Positions 36,466 to 46,116 of a stretch of DNA of 48,781 nucleotides are shown piece by piece. The first letter of the stretch is position 1. Every line of letters begins with the position of its first letter. This DNA comes from an uncultured Truepera sp. GTDB lineage: Bacteria; Deinococcota; Deinococci; Deinococcales; Trueperaceae. Both the position numbers and the translations under genes were made by a program. The stretch lies in NCBI GenBank assembly GCA_902806425.1, contig CADCWP010000296.1, forward strand, positions 1 through 48,781, read 5' to 3'. Below the pieces are notes generated by a model. The model did no database searches. It worked only from the letters and a program-made list of their open reading frames with translations, and was not told the origin of the DNA.

Positions 36466-37455
36466 CTACTCGGTAAAGGCCTCGAGCCGCGCTATCGCCC
36501 GCTCATACCCTGCTAGCGTCCCGGCAGCGCCTGCCGGAACGCGGTAGCCCCCCACAAAGACCGACGGCGTGCTGTTAAGACCCAGCTCCTGCGTGGCGAC
36601 CTGGAACGCCTCCCTCACCTCTCGGGTGTAACGGCCTTGCGTCAAACAGGCTGCCATCCCGTCGTTCGAGAGACCAATCTCTTGGGCCAGCCGGACAAAA
36701 TACGGTTGGACGTCAGCCAAGTTCGCCCACGCCCGCTGCCGCGCAAAGAGCGCGTCGTGGTACCCCCAAAAGTCCTTCGGTGTATTTGCCGCCACCACGC
36801 ACTCGGCGGCTTCGGCGGCGAGCTGCGCGTTAGCGTGGATGCTCGTCAGGGGCAGGTGATGGTACTCGAAGCGCACGTCGCCGCGGGCGAGCAGCGTCCT
36901 CTTGAGTTCGGGCAAGATGCCGGTCGCGTACTCCGCGCAGTAGGGGCACTGAAAGTCCGAAAACTCGCGGATGACGACCCTAGCGTCCTTCGGGCCCAGC
37001 AGGTGCCGCGAAGGTGGAAAGGACTCCGCCGGAACCACGGGCAGCTCGAGCCCAAACTGCACCCCGTAGGGGGCCGCGTCGCCCGTCACGTTCAGCGTAA
37101 GCACAAACTCCTCAACGGCTAAGCCGACCTCACCCTGTCCGGCCAACTCGGCGACTCTCGAGCCCAAAAACTCGGCGACCGGCCCTGCGATGCCCGCGCC
37201 GTAACCCGTCGCTGCGCCGACAAGCTGCGCCAGCGCCCGCTGGCCCTGCGGGTTCAGCGTCGCGGTGCCGGAGACGCTGTAGAGCAGCCCGCTCCGGTTC
37301 TTGGTGGTGAAGCGCACGCCGTCGGCCCTAAACCCCTCCGCCGTCTCAGCCGGGTTCAACGTTGACAAGCTCTTTACGAGTTGCGTGCTCGGCTCGCCGA
37401 TCTGTGCCGTCGCCACGCCGAAAAGCAGAGTCAGCGCTAGAAGGGGACGCTTCAC
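36466..37455 (-). CDS. exported DsbA-like thioredoxin-fold protein
   Basis: The 329-residue product has a signal peptide (MKRPLLALTLLFGVATAQ). Residues about 20-160 form an N-terminal domain without a recognised motif; the C-terminal half is a DsbA/DsbG-type thioredoxin fold with EFSDFQCPYCAEYATGILPE, whose CPYC is the redox pair, and the cis-Pro in STPSVFVGGY. It would form or exchange disulfides outside the cytoplasm. The GTG start overlaps the carboxypeptidase Taq stop (GTGA), and the gene directly abuts mrpA, so it is part of the antiporter transcript. Confidence 0.9.
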   Translation of the reverse strand: MKRPLLALTLLFGVATAQIGEPSTQLVKSLSTLNPAETAEGFRADGVRFTTKNRSGLLYSVSGTATLNPQGQRALAQLVGAATGYGAGIAGPVAEFLGSRVAELAGQGEVGLAVEEFVLTLNVTGDAAPYGVQFGLELPVVPAESFPPSRHLLGPKDARVVIREFSDFQCPYCAEYATGILPELKRTLLARGDVRFEYHHLPLTSIHANAQLAAEAAECVVAANTPKDFWGYHDALFARQRAWANLADVQPYFVRLAQEIGLSNDGMAACLTQGRYTREVREAFQVATQELGLNSTPSVFVGGYRVPAGAAGTLAGYERAIARLEAFTE

Positions 37456-38969: not shown

Positions 38970-39032
38970 ACGCAAAGCCCCCCTAGAACGCCGCCGGTTG
39001 GAAGGGCAGCCGGGGGGCCAAAACGCGCGTGT

Positions 39033-39038
39033 TACCAT
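39033..39038 (+). promoter_or_regulatory. -10 box TACCAT of the dynamin-like gene (leaderless)
   Basis: TACCAT is followed by seven bases and the ATG at 39046; it overlaps the in-frame codons further upstream, so these are not translated. Confidence 0.5.
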
Positions 39039-39045
39039 CTACACT

Positions 39046-40791
39046 ATGAATCTCCCTATGTCTGGGGCGGCGCGCGCGCTTCTCAACCGTGAGCGCCTGG
39101 TCATTGCCGACCTGAGTACGCTTTTGGGCAGGCTCGAGGCGCGTTCGGGCGACCTGAGCGAACTCCAGACCGCCCTAAAGGACCTTGAAGGACTCTTTTT
39201 GCTGGTGGTGTGCGGCGAGTACAACGCGGGCAAATCAACATTCCTAAACGCGCTGCTGGGTGAAAAGGTGATGTTGGAGGGCGTAACCCCGACAACCGAC
39301 CGCATCACTATCGTCACCTACGGCGACGAAAAGCGCGACGTTGAGGAGGGCGACTTCATCTTGCGCCGCGAGTTTCCGGCGGACATCCTGCGCGAGCTGG
39401 CCTTTGTCGATACCCCCGGCACAAACGCCGTGATCAAACAGCACCAAGAACTCACCGAACGCTTCGTCCCGCGCGCCGACCTGGTCTTGTTCGTTACCTC
39501 CGCCGACCGTCCCTTTACCGAGTCCGAGCGGCAGTTTTTAGACCTTATCCGCTCGTGGGGCAAAAAAGTCGTGGTGATCGTTAACAAGATCGATATTTTG
39601 GAGGACGACGAACGGGACAAGGTTTTGGCGTTTGTGCAAATACACGCCGCCGAGACCCTGCAAACGCGCGGCGACCCGCCGCAGGTCTTCGGAGTCGCGG
39701 CGCGGAGCGCGTTTCGGGCGCGGGGGGTGGGGGACGACGCGGCCTTGGCAGCGAGCGGCGTGCCCGCTTTGGAGGCGTTTATCAGCACTACCCTGGCCGG
39801 AGCGCGCCTCAAACTCAAACTCGGTACGCCTCTAGGCGTCGCGCAGCGCCTCGCCGAACGCTACGGAGGCGTGACCGAGGAGGAACTCGGACTTTTGGCG
39901 GGTGACCGCCGCACCTTGGACGAGGTCAAGCGGCAGACGGAGCAGTTCAAACGGGACATGCGCCGCGAGTTTGAATCGTACCTCGCCCGCGTCAAAACCG
40001 TGCTCTTAGAGGTCGAGCGGCGTGGTGACGTGTTCTTCGACGACACCGTGCGCCTGCACAAGATTTTGCAGCTCATCGACGCCGAGCGGATGCGCGACGC
40101 GTTCCGGACGCGCGTGATCCGGGGCGCGGACGCGGAGATCGACCGGGCGGTTTCCGAGATGGTCGACTGGTTTTTGGCCCGCAACGTGCAGCTCTGGGAG
40201 GACGTGACGGCGTTTGTTCAGGAGCGGCGGCAAGCGGGGGGCGAGCGGGTCATCGGTGAGGTCGGCGGGCGGTTTCAGTACGACCGTGACGCGCTGATCC
40301 GGGGGCTTAGTGAAAGCGCCGAGACGGTGATGGCGAGCTATAACGAGGACGCCGAGGCGCGCCGCTTGGCCGACGCCATGCAGAGCTCGGCGCTACAAAC
40401 CGGACTTATTCAGGTCGGTGGGTTGGGGTTAGGGGCGGCGGCGGTGGCGTTTTTGTCGGGTGCCGCCCTCGACGCGACCGGGATTTTAGCCGGGCTGACG
40501 GTCGCGGGGCTTGGATTTCTGGTGCTGCCCAACCGCCGCCGCAGCGCCAAACGCAACCTGCACGAAGAGATGCAGCGACTGCGCGATGGCCTCTCGGAGA
40601 GCCTGAACGGTCAGTTTGAACGGGAGCTGGACCGGGCGGCTGAAAAGTTAGGGGCGGCGATAGGCTCGTACACGCGCTTTGTAAAAAGTGAAGTGCGGCG
40701 GCTCGAGACCCTCCACGCGGAACTAGAGACCGTAGGCACCGAGCTGCGCGCCCTACGGCGCGAGGTAGACGCACTATCCGAGACCGGCTGA
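39046..40791 (+). CDS. bacterial dynamin-like GTPase
   Basis: The 581-residue protein has a helical N-terminal lead, then a GTPase domain: G1 VVCGEYNAGKSTFLNALLG, G2 Thr in GVTPTTDRITI, G3 AFVDTPGTNAV and G4 VIVNKIDILEDDERD. A long helical stalk follows (about 270-460) and a pair of hydrophobic segments near 465-505 (GLGLGAAAVAFLSGA, LTVAGLGFLVLPNRRRSA) that would insert in or tether to membrane, then a closing helix. Dynamin-like proteins remodel or repair membranes. It is a single copy; many bacteria carry pairs. Confidence 0.92.
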   Translation: MNLPMSGAARALLNRERLVIADLSTLLGRLEARSGDLSELQTALKDLEGLFLLVVCGEYNAGKSTFLNALLGEKVMLEGVTPTTDRITIVTYGDEKRDVEEGDFILRREFPADILRELAFVDTPGTNAVIKQHQELTERFVPRADLVLFVTSADRPFTESERQFLDLIRSWGKKVVVIVNKIDILEDDERDKVLAFVQIHAAETLQTRGDPPQVFGVAARSAFRARGVGDDAALAASGVPALEAFISTTLAGARLKLKLGTPLGVAQRLAERYGGVTEEELGLLAGDRRTLDEVKRQTEQFKRDMRREFESYLARVKTVLLEVERRGDVFFDDTVRLHKILQLIDAERMRDAFRTRVIRGADAEIDRAVSEMVDWFLARNVQLWEDVTAFVQERRQAGGERVIGEVGGRFQYDRDALIRGLSESAETVMASYNEDAEARRLADAMQSSALQTGLIQVGGLGLGAAAVAFLSGAALDATGILAGLTVAGLGFLVLPNRRRSAKRNLHEEMQRLRDGLSESLNGQFERELDRAAEKLGAAIGSYTRFVKSEVRRLETLHAELETVGTELRALRREVDALSETG

Positions 40792-41194: not shown

Positions 41195-42031
41195 TTAAAC
41201 TGACTCGCTGTTGACGTAACCGCGGTTCGAGATGCCGTTGTCAGCACCCGCAGAGTCCGTAACAACGGTGCGGAAAACGTAGGCGAACTCGCCGCCCGCG
41301 CCATCAAGGTCCTCGATGTCCTCTACGTCCGAGCCCACCGTGATCGGGTAGACGCAGGTGTAGGTGGCGCTGCCCAACGTGCAGTCGCTCGTCGGGTCGC
41401 CGAGGGTGAAGCCGCCGACCGGCGTATCGCCGAGCGTACCCGCGAGGCCTTCAGGCGTTCTATTGACAAGGCGGATCTCAACGTCTTCAATAGTCGCGCC
41501 CTCAGCAGCGGCGTAGTTGACCTGCGCGTAGAAGGTATCGCCGGGGGCCACGGTGATGATGTTTTCATCGTCGTTGCTAGTGATGTTGCCACCCACATCG
41601 CTCAAGAAGGGACCGGTCTCGGTGGTGCTGACGCCGAAAGCTCCGTCGGGTCCTTCACCGGGAAGGGGCTCGGGAATAGGCTCACTGGAACCGCCACCAG
41701 TCTCCGTACCACTCACCGTCACAGTCGTCGATTCTTCTGAGCTACCTTCGTCGCCCACAGCCGTCAGGGTGTATTCGGTCGTCGTCGAGGGCGTCACCGT
41801 AACGCTCGTTTCACCCGTAACGTCGCCGACTCCGGGCGTGATCGTGAGGCTAGTCGCGGTGCTGTCGACAGTCCAGCTCAAGGTCGAGCTTCCACCCGCC
41901 TGAATGGATTCTGGGCTGGCCATAAAGCTCGAGATTTCCGGGCCATCGCCGCCGAGTCCAGGGACGTCGGGGCAAGCCGTCAACCCAAGCACGAGCGCGA
42001 CGGACGCGAGTCCTAACTTCATTGACTTCAT
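41195..42031 (-). CDS. Ig-like lipoprotein A (shortest of a tandem family)
   Basis: The 278-residue protein has a lipobox (GLTAC, Cys20), one bacterial Ig-like domain (about 30-108: ISSFMASPESIQAGGSSTLS ... TPSTTTEYTLTAVG), a Gly/Pro/Ser linker and a C-terminal module of about 145 residues. That module (GPFLSDVGGNIT ... PVGGFTLGDPTSDC ... GGEFAYVFRTVVTDSAG) recurs in the next two genes. ATG 42031 has AGGAGGA upstream. Surface-exposed binding or adhesion is likely by architecture; the partner is unknown. Confidence 0.82.
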   Translation of the reverse strand: MKSMKLGLASVALVLGLTACPDVPGLGGDGPEISSFMASPESIQAGGSSTLSWTVDSTATSLTITPGVGDVTGETSVTVTPSTTTEYTLTAVGDEGSSEESTTVTVSGTETGGGSSEPIPEPLPGEGPDGAFGVSTTETGPFLSDVGGNITSNDDENIITVAPGDTFYAQVNYAAAEGATIEDVEIRLVNRTPEGLAGTLGDTPVGGFTLGDPTSDCTLGSATYTCVYPITVGSDVEDIEDLDGAGGEFAYVFRTVVTDSAGADNGISNRGYVNSESV

Positions 42032-42242
42032 ACAGTTCCTCCTACGCATTGATTAGCAGTCCTACCAGGGTACTTTACAGCACACGAGAGTAAGATGCTG
42101 CCACTACTCCACTACCTTACAGTATCGGAGATGAAAAATACATGACATCTGCACACGTTTTTCGTAAAATCTATGGCAACAGTCACGCGAAGTTGGTATA
42201 AAGGGTCACAGTACATCCCCCAAATCACCCACAGTCGGCAGC

Positions 42243-42272
42243 AGGAGGGCTCAGCCAAAACCGAGCCCTCCT
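42243..42272 (-). terminator. inverted repeat after Ig lipoprotein B
   Basis: A ten-base perfect stem (AGGAGGGCTC / GAGCCCTCCT) with a ten-base loop lies just past the gene's stop, but no T run follows, so it may be a Rho-type or processing hairpin. Confidence 0.5.
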
Positions 42273-42277
42273 AACCT

Positions 42278-43723
42278 TTACTCAACCGTGACCTCTACCG
42301 AGGGCGGGTCTTCGGTGCTGCCGTCGGTAGCCGAAAGTTCGTAGACGGCGCTCTCCTCCGCCTCGAGCGTCACGCTATCGGATCCGGCGGGTATCCTGCG
42401 TTCGTTTGGCGGGTCGTCCCCTACGGTTTCTGTCAAGAGTAAAAAGCTGGGTTCGTCCCCTGAAAGCGTCCAGGTAAACTCGAGGTCGTCCCCCTCTTCT
42501 ACCGTCACCGACGCTTCGCCGTTGACCAAGAAGGACTCGATGATAAACCCCTCGTCGGGTTCTTCGGGTGGCGCGTCGTCCTCCACATTGACCTCTTCGG
42601 TCGTGCTGTCGTCTAAGCCCTCGGGGTCGGTGACCGTCAGCGTGACCGAGTAAGTGTCGGCGTCGTCGTAACTTTTGGTCACGGTGCTGTTGTCAGCCGT
42701 TGAACCGTCGCCGAAACTCCAGGCATAGCTGAGGGTGTCGCCTTCGGGGTCGGAAGAGTCGGTGCCATCGAAGGTGAAGGTGTTCTCATCCTGGGCCGTC
42801 ACCGTAAACGCGGCAGTCGGGGCCTCGTTGTCGTCAGGCTCGGGTTCAGGCTCCGGCGGGGTCGGGGTGCCACCGCCCGCCTCGCCGACCGTCACGTAGC
42901 CCCGCGGCGGCGTGTTGGACCTGTTGCCCGAGGTATCGGTAACGTTCGTGCGGAAGACGTAAGCGAACTCACCGCCCGAGTCGGGCAGCTCGGTAATGTT
43001 CTCCACGTCGTCCCCGACTTCGATCTCGTAAACACAGGTGAGGTTCGTCGGGCGAGACGCGAAGTCGCACGCCCCAACGGTGCCGACCAAGGTAAAGCCA
43101 CCAACCGACTGCCCCTCGACGAGGTCGGCGGCGAGCCCGGCGGGGCTGCGGTTAGCGAGCCGCACGGTGATTCCGGCGATTCCCACATCATCCCCGTAGG
43201 CGACCTGCGCGTAAAAGGTATCGCCGGGGTCAAGCTTCAACACGCGCGCGTCGGTGGGGCTGCTGATGTCGCCGTCACTGTCGTTGAGAAAAGGACCCTG
43301 CGGGTCGGCGCTGACGCCGAAGCTACCCGATGGGGGCGTGGTGTCGGTACCCGGGGGCGTGGTCGGCGGTGGTGTGGTCGGGGGCGGCGTGGTGCCGCTC
43401 ACCGTTACGGTGGTGGACGCCGTATCGTCACCGGTGCTGTTGCGAGCGGTCAGCGTGTAGGTGGTGGTCGTAGGCGGGGTGACGGTAAAGCTCGTGCCCG
43501 ACACGCTGCCTATACCTTGGTTGAGCTCGAGGCCCGTCACCGCGCCTGAAACAGTCCAGCTCAAGACGGTGCTCGTCCCCGCCGTGATGGTGCTCGGCTC
43601 AGCGGTAAAACTCGTAATTACAGGTGCGCCACCCTGCCCGCCGTCCGGCCCGCCCCCACCGAGCAGGTCGCAGCCGACAAGCGAAAAAAGCGCGAGCAGC
43701 GGGAAAATCTGTCTGAGTGTCAT
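42278..43723 (-). CDS. Ig-like/PKD lipoprotein B
   Basis: The 481-residue lipoprotein (lipobox LVGC, Cys18) holds an Ig-like domain (35-110), a Thr/Pro linker, the shared two-cysteine module (about 130-275; GDTFYAQVAYGDDVG, SVGGFTLVGTVGACDF, CVYEIEVGDDVENI, GGEFAYVFRTNVTDTSGNRS), one PKD domain (about 305-385, with YAWSFGDGSTADN) and a final Ig-like domain. AGGAGG precedes the ATG. It lies between two paralogues on the same strand, each with its own end signal. Confidence 0.85.
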   Translation of the reverse strand: MTLRQIFPLLALFSLVGCDLLGGGGPDGGQGGAPVITSFTAEPSTITAGTSTVLSWTVSGAVTGLELNQGIGSVSGTSFTVTPPTTTTYTLTARNSTGDDTASTTVTVSGTTPPPTTPPPTTPPGTDTTPPSGSFGVSADPQGPFLNDSDGDISSPTDARVLKLDPGDTFYAQVAYGDDVGIAGITVRLANRSPAGLAADLVEGQSVGGFTLVGTVGACDFASRPTNLTCVYEIEVGDDVENITELPDSGGEFAYVFRTNVTDTSGNRSNTPPRGYVTVGEAGGGTPTPPEPEPEPDDNEAPTAAFTVTAQDENTFTFDGTDSSDPEGDTLSYAWSFGDGSTADNSTVTKSYDDADTYSVTLTVTDPEGLDDSTTEEVNVEDDAPPEEPDEGFIIESFLVNGEASVTVEEGDDLEFTWTLSGDEPSFLLLTETVGDDPPNERRIPAGSDSVTLEAEESAVYELSATDGSTEDPPSVEVTVE

Positions 43724-43762
43724 AGTCCTCCTTTAAGGCACAGCTTAAACGGTCAGTAGTCA

Positions 43763-43797
43763 AAAAAGGGCGCGTTCAGCACGTTATAGCGCACCCT
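43763..43797 (-). terminator. Rho-independent terminator after Ig lipoprotein C
   Basis: On the minus strand an imperfect stem (AAGGGTGCGC / GCGCCCTT, one bulged base) precedes six T residues just downstream of the gene's stop. Confidence 0.75.
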
Positions 43798-43815
43798 TCG
43801 CAGCGTTGGGAGTCG

Positions 43816-46116
43816 TTAGTCGGGAACCGTGACCGCCTTGTTTGCCCGCGCCGTCACGCCGTCGTCGGTGCGAACGGTGAGGTAGACCGTGTACACGCCC
43901 GCCTCCGCGTAGGTATGCGTGGTTTGCGACCCCGCGCCCAAGCTGCCGTCGCCAAAGTCCCACGAGTAGCTGAGGACGTTGCCGTTAGAGCCCTCCGTCG
44001 TCGAGGTAAACGTCGCGCTCATCCCCTCGACGTCGTGGTCGAAGTCGGCTCTCAGGTCACTCTCGTCGCCGCCCCCGCCACCTTCCGCGACGGTCACGGT
44101 CACCTGCTTCGGCTCAGCCGCCCCGGAGCCGTTTCTGGCGTGCAGCGTGTAGGTCGTGTCGGTCGTCGGGGCGACCGTCATCGCCCGGTCGGGGTCTGCG
44201 GTGACGTTCAGCTCATCCGGACTCAGCCACACCTCCGTCGCCTCTCCGGAGATGTCCCAGGCCAAAACGACCTCCGCGCCCGCCGCGACCTCTATCCCGT
44301 CCTGACCGTCAGCCGTAAACGACGTGATAGACGGCGTTGGCGGCGTTACAGGTGTCGGCGGCGTTACAGGTGTCGGTGGCGTCACGGGTGTGGGCGGCGC
44401 GTTATCGTCGTCCTCTTCCTCGGCAGCAAAGGTCTCTTCAGCCACCTCGGACACCTCACCCTCGTCGTCGGTCACGACCAAGCTGACGTCGTAGTCGCCC
44501 TCCGACACAGCAGGAAACTTAGGCCTGGGGCCGGTGTACAGTCTTGTTCCACCACGCGGGCCGCGGACTACCCACGCGTAGGCCGTGATATCCCCACCGT
44601 CGGGGTCGCTTGAAGCCGAGCCGTCGAGGGTGACGATGTTACCTACAGCAACTTCTTCAGGCGCGTAGTCAATGCGCGCTACCGGAGCCTCGGACGGTGT
44701 ACCACCGCCGTCATCGTCGTCCGTGACGGTAACGGTAGCGGAGGCCGTGTCGCTGCCCGCCGCGCCCTGCGCCGTCAGCGTATAGGTCGTCGTCTCGTCC
44801 GGGCTGACCTCAACATCTTCGTCACCCATCACGCTGCCCACACCCTGATCGATGCTCAGCGAGGTTACGGTGCCTGAAACGCTCCACGAAAGCTGCGCGT
44901 CGTCGCCCTCCTCGACCGTCGAAGGCGTGGCGGTAAAGGCGTCTATGGTCGGGGCCTCGGGCTCGGGGGGTGGCGGCGGTGATGGCGGCGGGGCGGTGTC
45001 GCCCGGTACGTCGACCTCGAGGGTCTTCGTCTCGGTATCCGACCCGCCCGCCCCGTCGCTCACCGTCAACGTGACCTCGTAGGGGCCGTCCTCCGTGTAC
45101 CTTTTCGTAAAGTCACGGGTGTTCGCCTCCGTGCCGTCGCCAAAGCTCCACGCGTACGAGAGCGGGTCGCCGTCCGGGTCGGTACTGCCGACGCCGCTGA
45201 ACTTGACGGTGACGCTGCCCTCGTCGGAAGCGGTCTCGGTGCTCGTAAAGGCTGCAACCGGGTCGCGGTTGCCAGGTGGGTCGCCGGGTGGGTTGGGCGT
45301 GCCGCTGCCATTACCGACGATCACGTAGCCACGAGGCGGCGTGTCGGACCGGTTGCCCGCAGCGTCGGTCACGTTCGTGCGAAAGACGTAGGCGAACTCG
45401 CCGCCCGCGCCGTCGAGCTGGTCGATGTTGGGGATGTCGCCGACGCCGATCTCGTAGATGCAGTTCACCGTCGTTCGCGTACCGTCGAGGACGCAGCCAC
45501 TGACTTCACCGACTAAGGTAAAGCCGCCCACCTCCTGACCCTGCACGAGGTCGGCCTCGAGTCCGGGAGGGTTGCGGTTGGCGATAAAGATGTTTACCGC
45601 AGCGATACCACCCGGGTCGGTGTACGAGACGAGCGCGTAGAAGGTGCCACCTGGCTCCACGCGGATGATGCGCGGGTCGTTCGGGCCGGTGATGTTGCCG
45701 CCCTGGTCGCTCTGAAAGTTCGTCTGGTCGAGCGAGACGCCGAAGTCGCCGGAAGGGGGTAGGCCGTCCTCTACGGGCGTGCCGCCGCCACCCGGGCCGA
45801 GCGTGACCACAGCGGTCGCCTCGGCGTTGCCGCTACTGTTGGTCGCGGTCAGGGTGTAGGTCGTGGTGGCCGCCGGGTAGACCACCTTGCTGGTACCCGA
45901 AACCGCGCCTACACCCTGGTCGATCTCGAGGCCCGTCACGCCGCCCGTGATGTCCCAGGTGAGCGTCACCGGCTGCCTCGCCGCAGTGATATTTGCCGGG
46001 GTCGCGGTAAAGCTGACGATGGTCGGCGCGCCCACGGGTCCGGGTGCGCTCGGGCAGGCGGTCAGGGCCAACATCAAGATAACGAGAGAGGGCCAGAAGG
46101 TGGCACTTTTTCGCAT
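43816..46116 (-). CDS. Ig-like/PKD lipoprotein C (multidomain)
   Basis: The 766-residue lipoprotein (lipobox ALTAC, Cys21) runs: Ig-like (30-110), the shared two-cysteine module (about 118-275; GGFTLVGEVSGCVL, CIYEIGVGDIPNI, GGEFAYVFRTNVTDAAGNRS), PKD (about 290-370; YAWSFGDGTEANTRDF), Ig-like (about 385-470), PKD-type (about 485-565), a PPTPVT repeat linker (about 575-600), Ig-like and a last PKD (about 685-766; YSWDFGDGSLG). GGAGG precedes the ATG. A cell-surface adhesin or structural protein is expected; no enzyme domain is present. Confidence 0.85.
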   Translation of the reverse strand: MRKSATFWPSLVILMLALTACPSAPGPVGAPTIVSFTATPANITAARQPVTLTWDITGGVTGLEIDQGVGAVSGTSKVVYPAATTTYTLTATNSSGNAEATAVVTLGPGGGGTPVEDGLPPSGDFGVSLDQTNFQSDQGGNITGPNDPRIIRVEPGGTFYALVSYTDPGGIAAVNIFIANRNPPGLEADLVQGQEVGGFTLVGEVSGCVLDGTRTTVNCIYEIGVGDIPNIDQLDGAGGEFAYVFRTNVTDAAGNRSDTPPRGYVIVGNGSGTPNPPGDPPGNRDPVAAFTSTETASDEGSVTVKFSGVGSTDPDGDPLSYAWSFGDGTEANTRDFTKRYTEDGPYEVTLTVSDGAGGSDTETKTLEVDVPGDTAPPPSPPPPPEPEAPTIDAFTATPSTVEEGDDAQLSWSVSGTVTSLSIDQGVGSVMGDEDVEVSPDETTTYTLTAQGAAGSDTASATVTVTDDDDGGGTPSEAPVARIDYAPEEVAVGNIVTLDGSASSDPDGGDITAYAWVVRGPRGGTRLYTGPRPKFPAVSEGDYDVSLVVTDDEGEVSEVAEETFAAEEEDDDNAPPTPVTPPTPVTPPTPVTPPTPSITSFTADGQDGIEVAAGAEVVLAWDISGEATEVWLSPDELNVTADPDRAMTVAPTTDTTYTLHARNGSGAAEPKQVTVTVAEGGGGGDESDLRADFDHDVEGMSATFTSTTEGSNGNVLSYSWDFGDGSLGAGSQTTHTYAEAGVYTVYLTVRTDDGVTARANKAVTVPD
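44336..44398. repeat. 18-bp tandem repeat coding a PPTPVT linker
   Basis: Three and a half copies of an 18-base unit (GTCGGCGGCGTTACAGGT and variants) at 44336-44353, 44354-44371, 44372-44389 and a partial copy encode Pro-rich hexapeptides in Ig lipoprotein C. Confidence 0.9.

Follow-up and report, generated by a model that had tools for sequence, protein, structure and literature searches.

Results

Three tandem lipoproteins with a common module

The DNA analysed here (the window) is a stretch of 48,781 nucleotides from an uncultured Truepera species, in which three lipoprotein genes, here called A, B and C, lie in tandem on the minus strand; all of their parts described below lie on that strand as well. 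Protein A (41,195–42,049; 284 residues) consists of a signal peptide with the lipobox LTAC (Cys26), one N-terminal Ig-like domain (residues 37–113; 41,711–41,941), delimited by eye and by alignment, and, at its C-terminus, the module that is the subject of this study. Protein B (42,278–43,723; 481 residues; lipobox LVGC, Cys18) carries an Ig domain, the module, a PKD domain (residues 299–378; 42,590–42,829; Pfam PF18911, E=4.5e-19) and a C-terminal Ig-like stretch, and protein C (43,816–46,116; 766 residues; lipobox LTAC, Cys21) has the order Ig, module, PKD, Ig, PKD, PTPVTP-rich linker, Ig, PKD. PF18911 matches three stretches of C (E=1.1e-43), the first at residues 283–369 (45,010–45,270), and one of B. 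While the PKD domains of these two proteins are clear, the Ig domains of the window proteins score below the Pfam cut-offs. The linker of C, in the C-terminal third of the protein, is rich in proline and made up of PTPVTP repeats; a relative of C in Truepera radiovictrix, the C24 orthologue introduced below, has a long PPSPPSP linker at a different position.

A first-pass annotation of this DNA had described a series of motifs in the same order in the three lipoproteins, and we recovered this order in each of them. Their alignment defines a homologous region of 147–155 residues with about 60 invariant columns, which include the blocks GGFTL, C..C-x-Y-x-I-x-VG, GGEFAYVFRT-x-VTD and RGYV. The module measures 147 residues in A (41,210–41,650; from the sequence alignment and a structural model with A as target), 155 in B (42,884–43,348; predicted to be an all-beta Ig-like sandwich) and 152 in C (45,313–45,768; from the sequence alignment). 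Each copy contains a single cysteine pair with a spacing of 8–10 residues: C-x8-C in A (residues 223 and 232; 41,354–41,383), and C-x10-C in B (residues 219 and 230; 43,034–43,069) and in C (residues 208 and 219; 45,460–45,495). Pairwise alignment scores between the three copies lie 41–68 standard deviations above those of shuffled sequences. With 59% identity between B and C against 53% between A and C and 51% between B and A, the earlier impression that B and C are close and A is more diverged holds only to a mild degree. Similarly, the placement of the module between Ig and PKD domains applies to B and C, but not to A, in which the module comes last and a PKD domain is absent.

Relation to known domain families

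In Pfam and NCBIfam scans of A, B and C, no family reached its cut-off on the module (best E about 0.015–0.1), and a Pfam scan of all 11 copies found in the searches described below likewise gave nothing at cut-off on it, in agreement with the initial view that the module corresponds to no named domain. Searched by sequence, solved protein chains yielded no match to the module, and PHROGs yielded no meaningful one.

The module resembles bacterial Ig-like domains such as Big_3_2 (PF12245) and Big_7 (PF17957) in that it, too, is predicted to form an Ig-like beta-sandwich, and its F-strand-to-turn motif, Y-x-F-x-x-x-V-T-D-x-x-G-N, aligns weakly to Big_3_2. In the scan of the window proteins, this family scores 14.9 bits against a gathering threshold of 23.3 (E=0.03), covering profile positions 96–117 only, and in the scan of the 11 modules it weakly touches three (best E=0.1). 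The weak matches fall on the VTD-x-x-GN turn, where the F–G turn of an Ig-like domain would be expected. However, with E-values of about 0.03–0.1 the module lies far under the gathering cut-off for such domains, is longer (about 150 residues) and has a conserved cysteine pair. PKD domains (PF18911/PF00801) are beta-sandwiches adjoining the module in the same proteins, and its V-T-D-x-x-G turn is similar to theirs, but the module lacks the W-x-F-G-D-G core, the hhalign comparison is not significant (E=0.28), and the Pfam scans of the window proteins and of the 11 modules returned no PKD family at cut-off on it. A derivation of the module from the Ig or PKD domains of its own proteins was also considered and found no support: the comparison with their profiles, in which short pieces in equivalent strands are aligned, is not significant.

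Distribution and family types

We found 11 copies of the module in two species, six in the window genome (A, B, C and one each on contigs 24, 153 and 4) and five in T. radiovictrix. In 37 other genomes of the family Trueperaceae there was no significant match, and a profile of the 11 members, searched against 111 genomes, gave none in the 109 others of the phylum. Its weak matches (E 0.08–0.34) cover short stretches, and the two that we read (L024 and L026) are unrelated proteins. A search with the reduced E subfamily in 39 genomes of the family produced matches outside the genus with E-values of 0.003 or worse; among those read, L036 contains an internal stop, while L038 and L041 bear no relation to the module proteins. 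Across 84,980 species genomes, two pattern scans revealed no confirmed relative; as such scans demand that a single short conserved segment be matched exactly and may omit genomes near the window, they exclude close relatives only. Two pattern scans of viral contigs likewise revealed no confirmed relative, and a plasmid collection held no match to the module. Judged by sequence, the family is restricted to Truepera among the genomes searched, and the presence across Deinococcota that the first-pass annotation had in mind did not materialize, the module being found in the window genome and T. radiovictrix only. A literature search for Ig/PKD lipoproteins of Deinococcus found nothing, and one for lipoproteins of Truepera found incidental mentions only.

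The copies trace back to five ancestral types, A, B, C24 (named after the contig-24 copy), D and E, represented by five syntenic genes at four loci, A–B, C24, D and E, in both species. In both species, A and B adjoin the genes of a dynamin-family GTPase and of an M32 carboxypeptidase, as named by Pfam. As named by reading their sequences, the neighbour of the C24 type is a metallophosphoesterase-like gene, and the E type lies between endonuclease III-like and ferredoxin-NADP reductase-like genes. The D type is part of a long conserved block.

The module as the constant part

The module is the sole part common to all 11 members. In A, D and E it stands at the C-terminal end, without PKD domains, and in E without an Ig domain as well. 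In the C-terminal part of the T. radiovictrix orthologue of B, no match to PKD is seen, whereas the C24 orthologue of this species is extended by two PKD domains and two divergent InlB B-repeats; the contig-24 copy of the window genome (L002, bases 1–2166) runs off the end of its contig. As the module persists in E in the absence of Ig, and in A, D and E in the absence of PKD, it is, from these domain assignments, the constant part of the family. This fits the original proposal of a core module with Ig and PKD domains as spacers that come and go. The varied partners also foreseen there are seen at the C-terminal side within the genus, but not beyond it.

A signal peptide with a terminal lipobox cysteine can be read in A, B and C and in the two E copies. 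In the D subfamily (L004:1015–1965, plus strand; L012:1495–2385, minus strand), the N-terminus resembles a signal peptide but shows no clear lipobox; these members are possibly secreted without being lipidated.

All 11 modules retain a Cys-x(8–12)-Cys pair, and the remaining cysteines belong to the lipobox, lie at another point in the signal-peptide region or ahead of a more likely start, or occur in added C-terminal parts. This pattern suggests a disulfide bond, which would probably link a loop to the strand that follows. Separately, a gene for a DsbA-like thioredoxin (Thioredoxin_4) with a signal-peptide-like start is found at 36,466–37,455 of the window, 4–9 kb from the lipoprotein genes, an observation of proximity only.

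Predicted fold

With an input alignment of just the three window copies, AlphaFold2 predicted module B as a compact all-beta domain of eight strands (mean pLDDT 82, pTM 0.81), in keeping with the compact fold that had been anticipated; three of the five models were good and two failed (pLDDT 33). With module A as target, the main strands appeared in the same order (pLDDT 72). In a Foldseek comparison with the PDB, the model of B matched mostly Ig-like sandwiches (NPC2, RhoGDI, antibody and other V-set domains, neuroplastin), with 15 matches below an E-value of 0.001 and NPC2 first (E 2.7e-4). The list for A, again made up mostly of Ig-like sandwiches, is weaker, with a best E-value of 1.7e-3; an agarose-binding carbohydrate-binding module (CBM) comes first, Siglec-like adhesin domains, antibodies and RhoGDI are present as well, and NPC2 is found at rank 36. 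Viral fold matches were weak only, several of them being viral membrane glycoproteins. As the TM-scores are low (about 0.3–0.5, by query length) and the rmsd values are mostly 5–8 Å, these matches indicate a fold class and no specific relationship. At this level, the module is predicted to match solved Ig-like domains, and its fold is predicted to be Ig-like rather than new.

Discussion

What could be the role of this module at the cell surface? With five to six copies per genome, the family would provide Truepera with a set of surface proteins, mostly lipoproteins, in which a lipid-anchored N-terminus is usually followed by an Ig-like stalk, then by the module of about 130–155 residues and, in some members, by PKD, Ig or InlB B-repeat domains. 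This order, and the fact that the module stayed while other domains were lost, suggest that it is the displayed head domain. Exposed on the cell envelope, it would contact proteins or glycans, in adhesion or in the organization of the envelope; both the surface exposure and the adhesive role of the module proteins are what we infer. Thus phrased, our favoured reading is that the module is a diverged, genus-restricted Ig-like beta-sandwich that forms the constant head of a Truepera surface-protein family with a likely part in adhesion or envelope organization, and we regard this reading as probable. A more far-reaching version, which we put forward only tentatively, has the module as a receptor or adhesin invented within the genus: an Ig-like head, stapled by a disulfide, would recognize a ligand of its own, such as a glycan, a lipid or an envelope partner, and would have been duplicated into a small set of surface proteins whose stalks and extensions can be exchanged.

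In the main rival reading, the module is a mere spacer, an Ig-like rod segment that itself binds no ligand, and its proteins fill or scaffold the envelope. The predicted Ig-like fold, the company of Ig and PKD domains and the diverged, genus-restricted sequence would all agree with this, but the module is the one domain that all 11 members retain, and it comes last in A, D and E. Moreover, long conserved blocks such as EFAY(V/A)FR and the cysteine pair are kept while the adjoining domains change, so that we see in the spacer an alternative to be taken seriously, if an unlikely one. The structural matches raise two more specific possibilities. One is a lectin-like, carbohydrate-binding domain akin to CBMs or to the Siglec-like domains of streptococcal serine-rich-repeat adhesins, which are Ig-like as well. 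The agarose-binding CBM heads the list for A, a Siglec-plus-Unique domain structure of such adhesins (6eff) is present in both lists, and 6efi and Hsa are in that of A. However, the E-values in the A list range from 1.7e-3 to 5e-2, the TM-scores with the Siglec-like domains are low, at about 0.4–0.5, and the module has no detectable sequence relation to any CBM or Siglec family. The structure matches are weak, and an arginine that invariably follows EFAY(V/A)F in the module may or may not correspond to the sialoglycan-binding F-strand arginine of the Siglec fold. We consider a lectin-like domain improbable and keep the Siglec resemblance as a lead. The other possibility, a lipid-binding sandwich of the E-set/ML type that would hold a lipid or carotenoid between its sheets, is a weak lead and the least probable of all. 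It takes its appeal from the Ig-like E-set sandwiches NPC2, at the top of the list for B, and RhoGDI, which recurs in the lists for A and B. Yet the scores of V-set Ig domains, those of antibodies included, are about as good, TM-scores reach only 0.45–0.5, and NPC2 drops far down the list for A. The module has no sequence match to NPC2 or RhoGDI, and their cysteine pattern is unlike its own; NPC2 has three disulfides, compared with a single cysteine pair in the module. The constant, displayed Ig-like head remains the reading that we prefer.

The module is a modest new, unnamed sequence family of an ordinary kind, predicted to be Ig-like, and not a new kind of system. It illustrates that a signature without a Pfam hit in surface proteins can stand for a lineage-specific Ig-like domain. 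With six and five copies in the two species, the family is defined well enough that it could seed a Pfam entry, and it offers a cheap test case for the turnover of surface proteins in Trueperaceae.

Protein A is 54% identical to its syntenic T. radiovictrix orthologue. In the tree, C groups with the contig-24 copy (support 93/92), to which it is about 70% identical, the two being in-paralogues, and the pair then groups with the T. radiovictrix C24 orthologue (98/98). As C is also absent from the A–B locus of T. radiovictrix, it appears to have arisen by a recent duplication and to have been inserted next to A and B. Ratios of dN/dS between orthologues and close paralogues of 0.15–0.38, rough values because dS is mostly above 1, indicate that the module family is under purifying selection. 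Beside the array, the gene for the dynamin-family GTPase occupies positions 38,998–40,791 of the window, and its counterpart at the corresponding place in T. radiovictrix is 76% identical.
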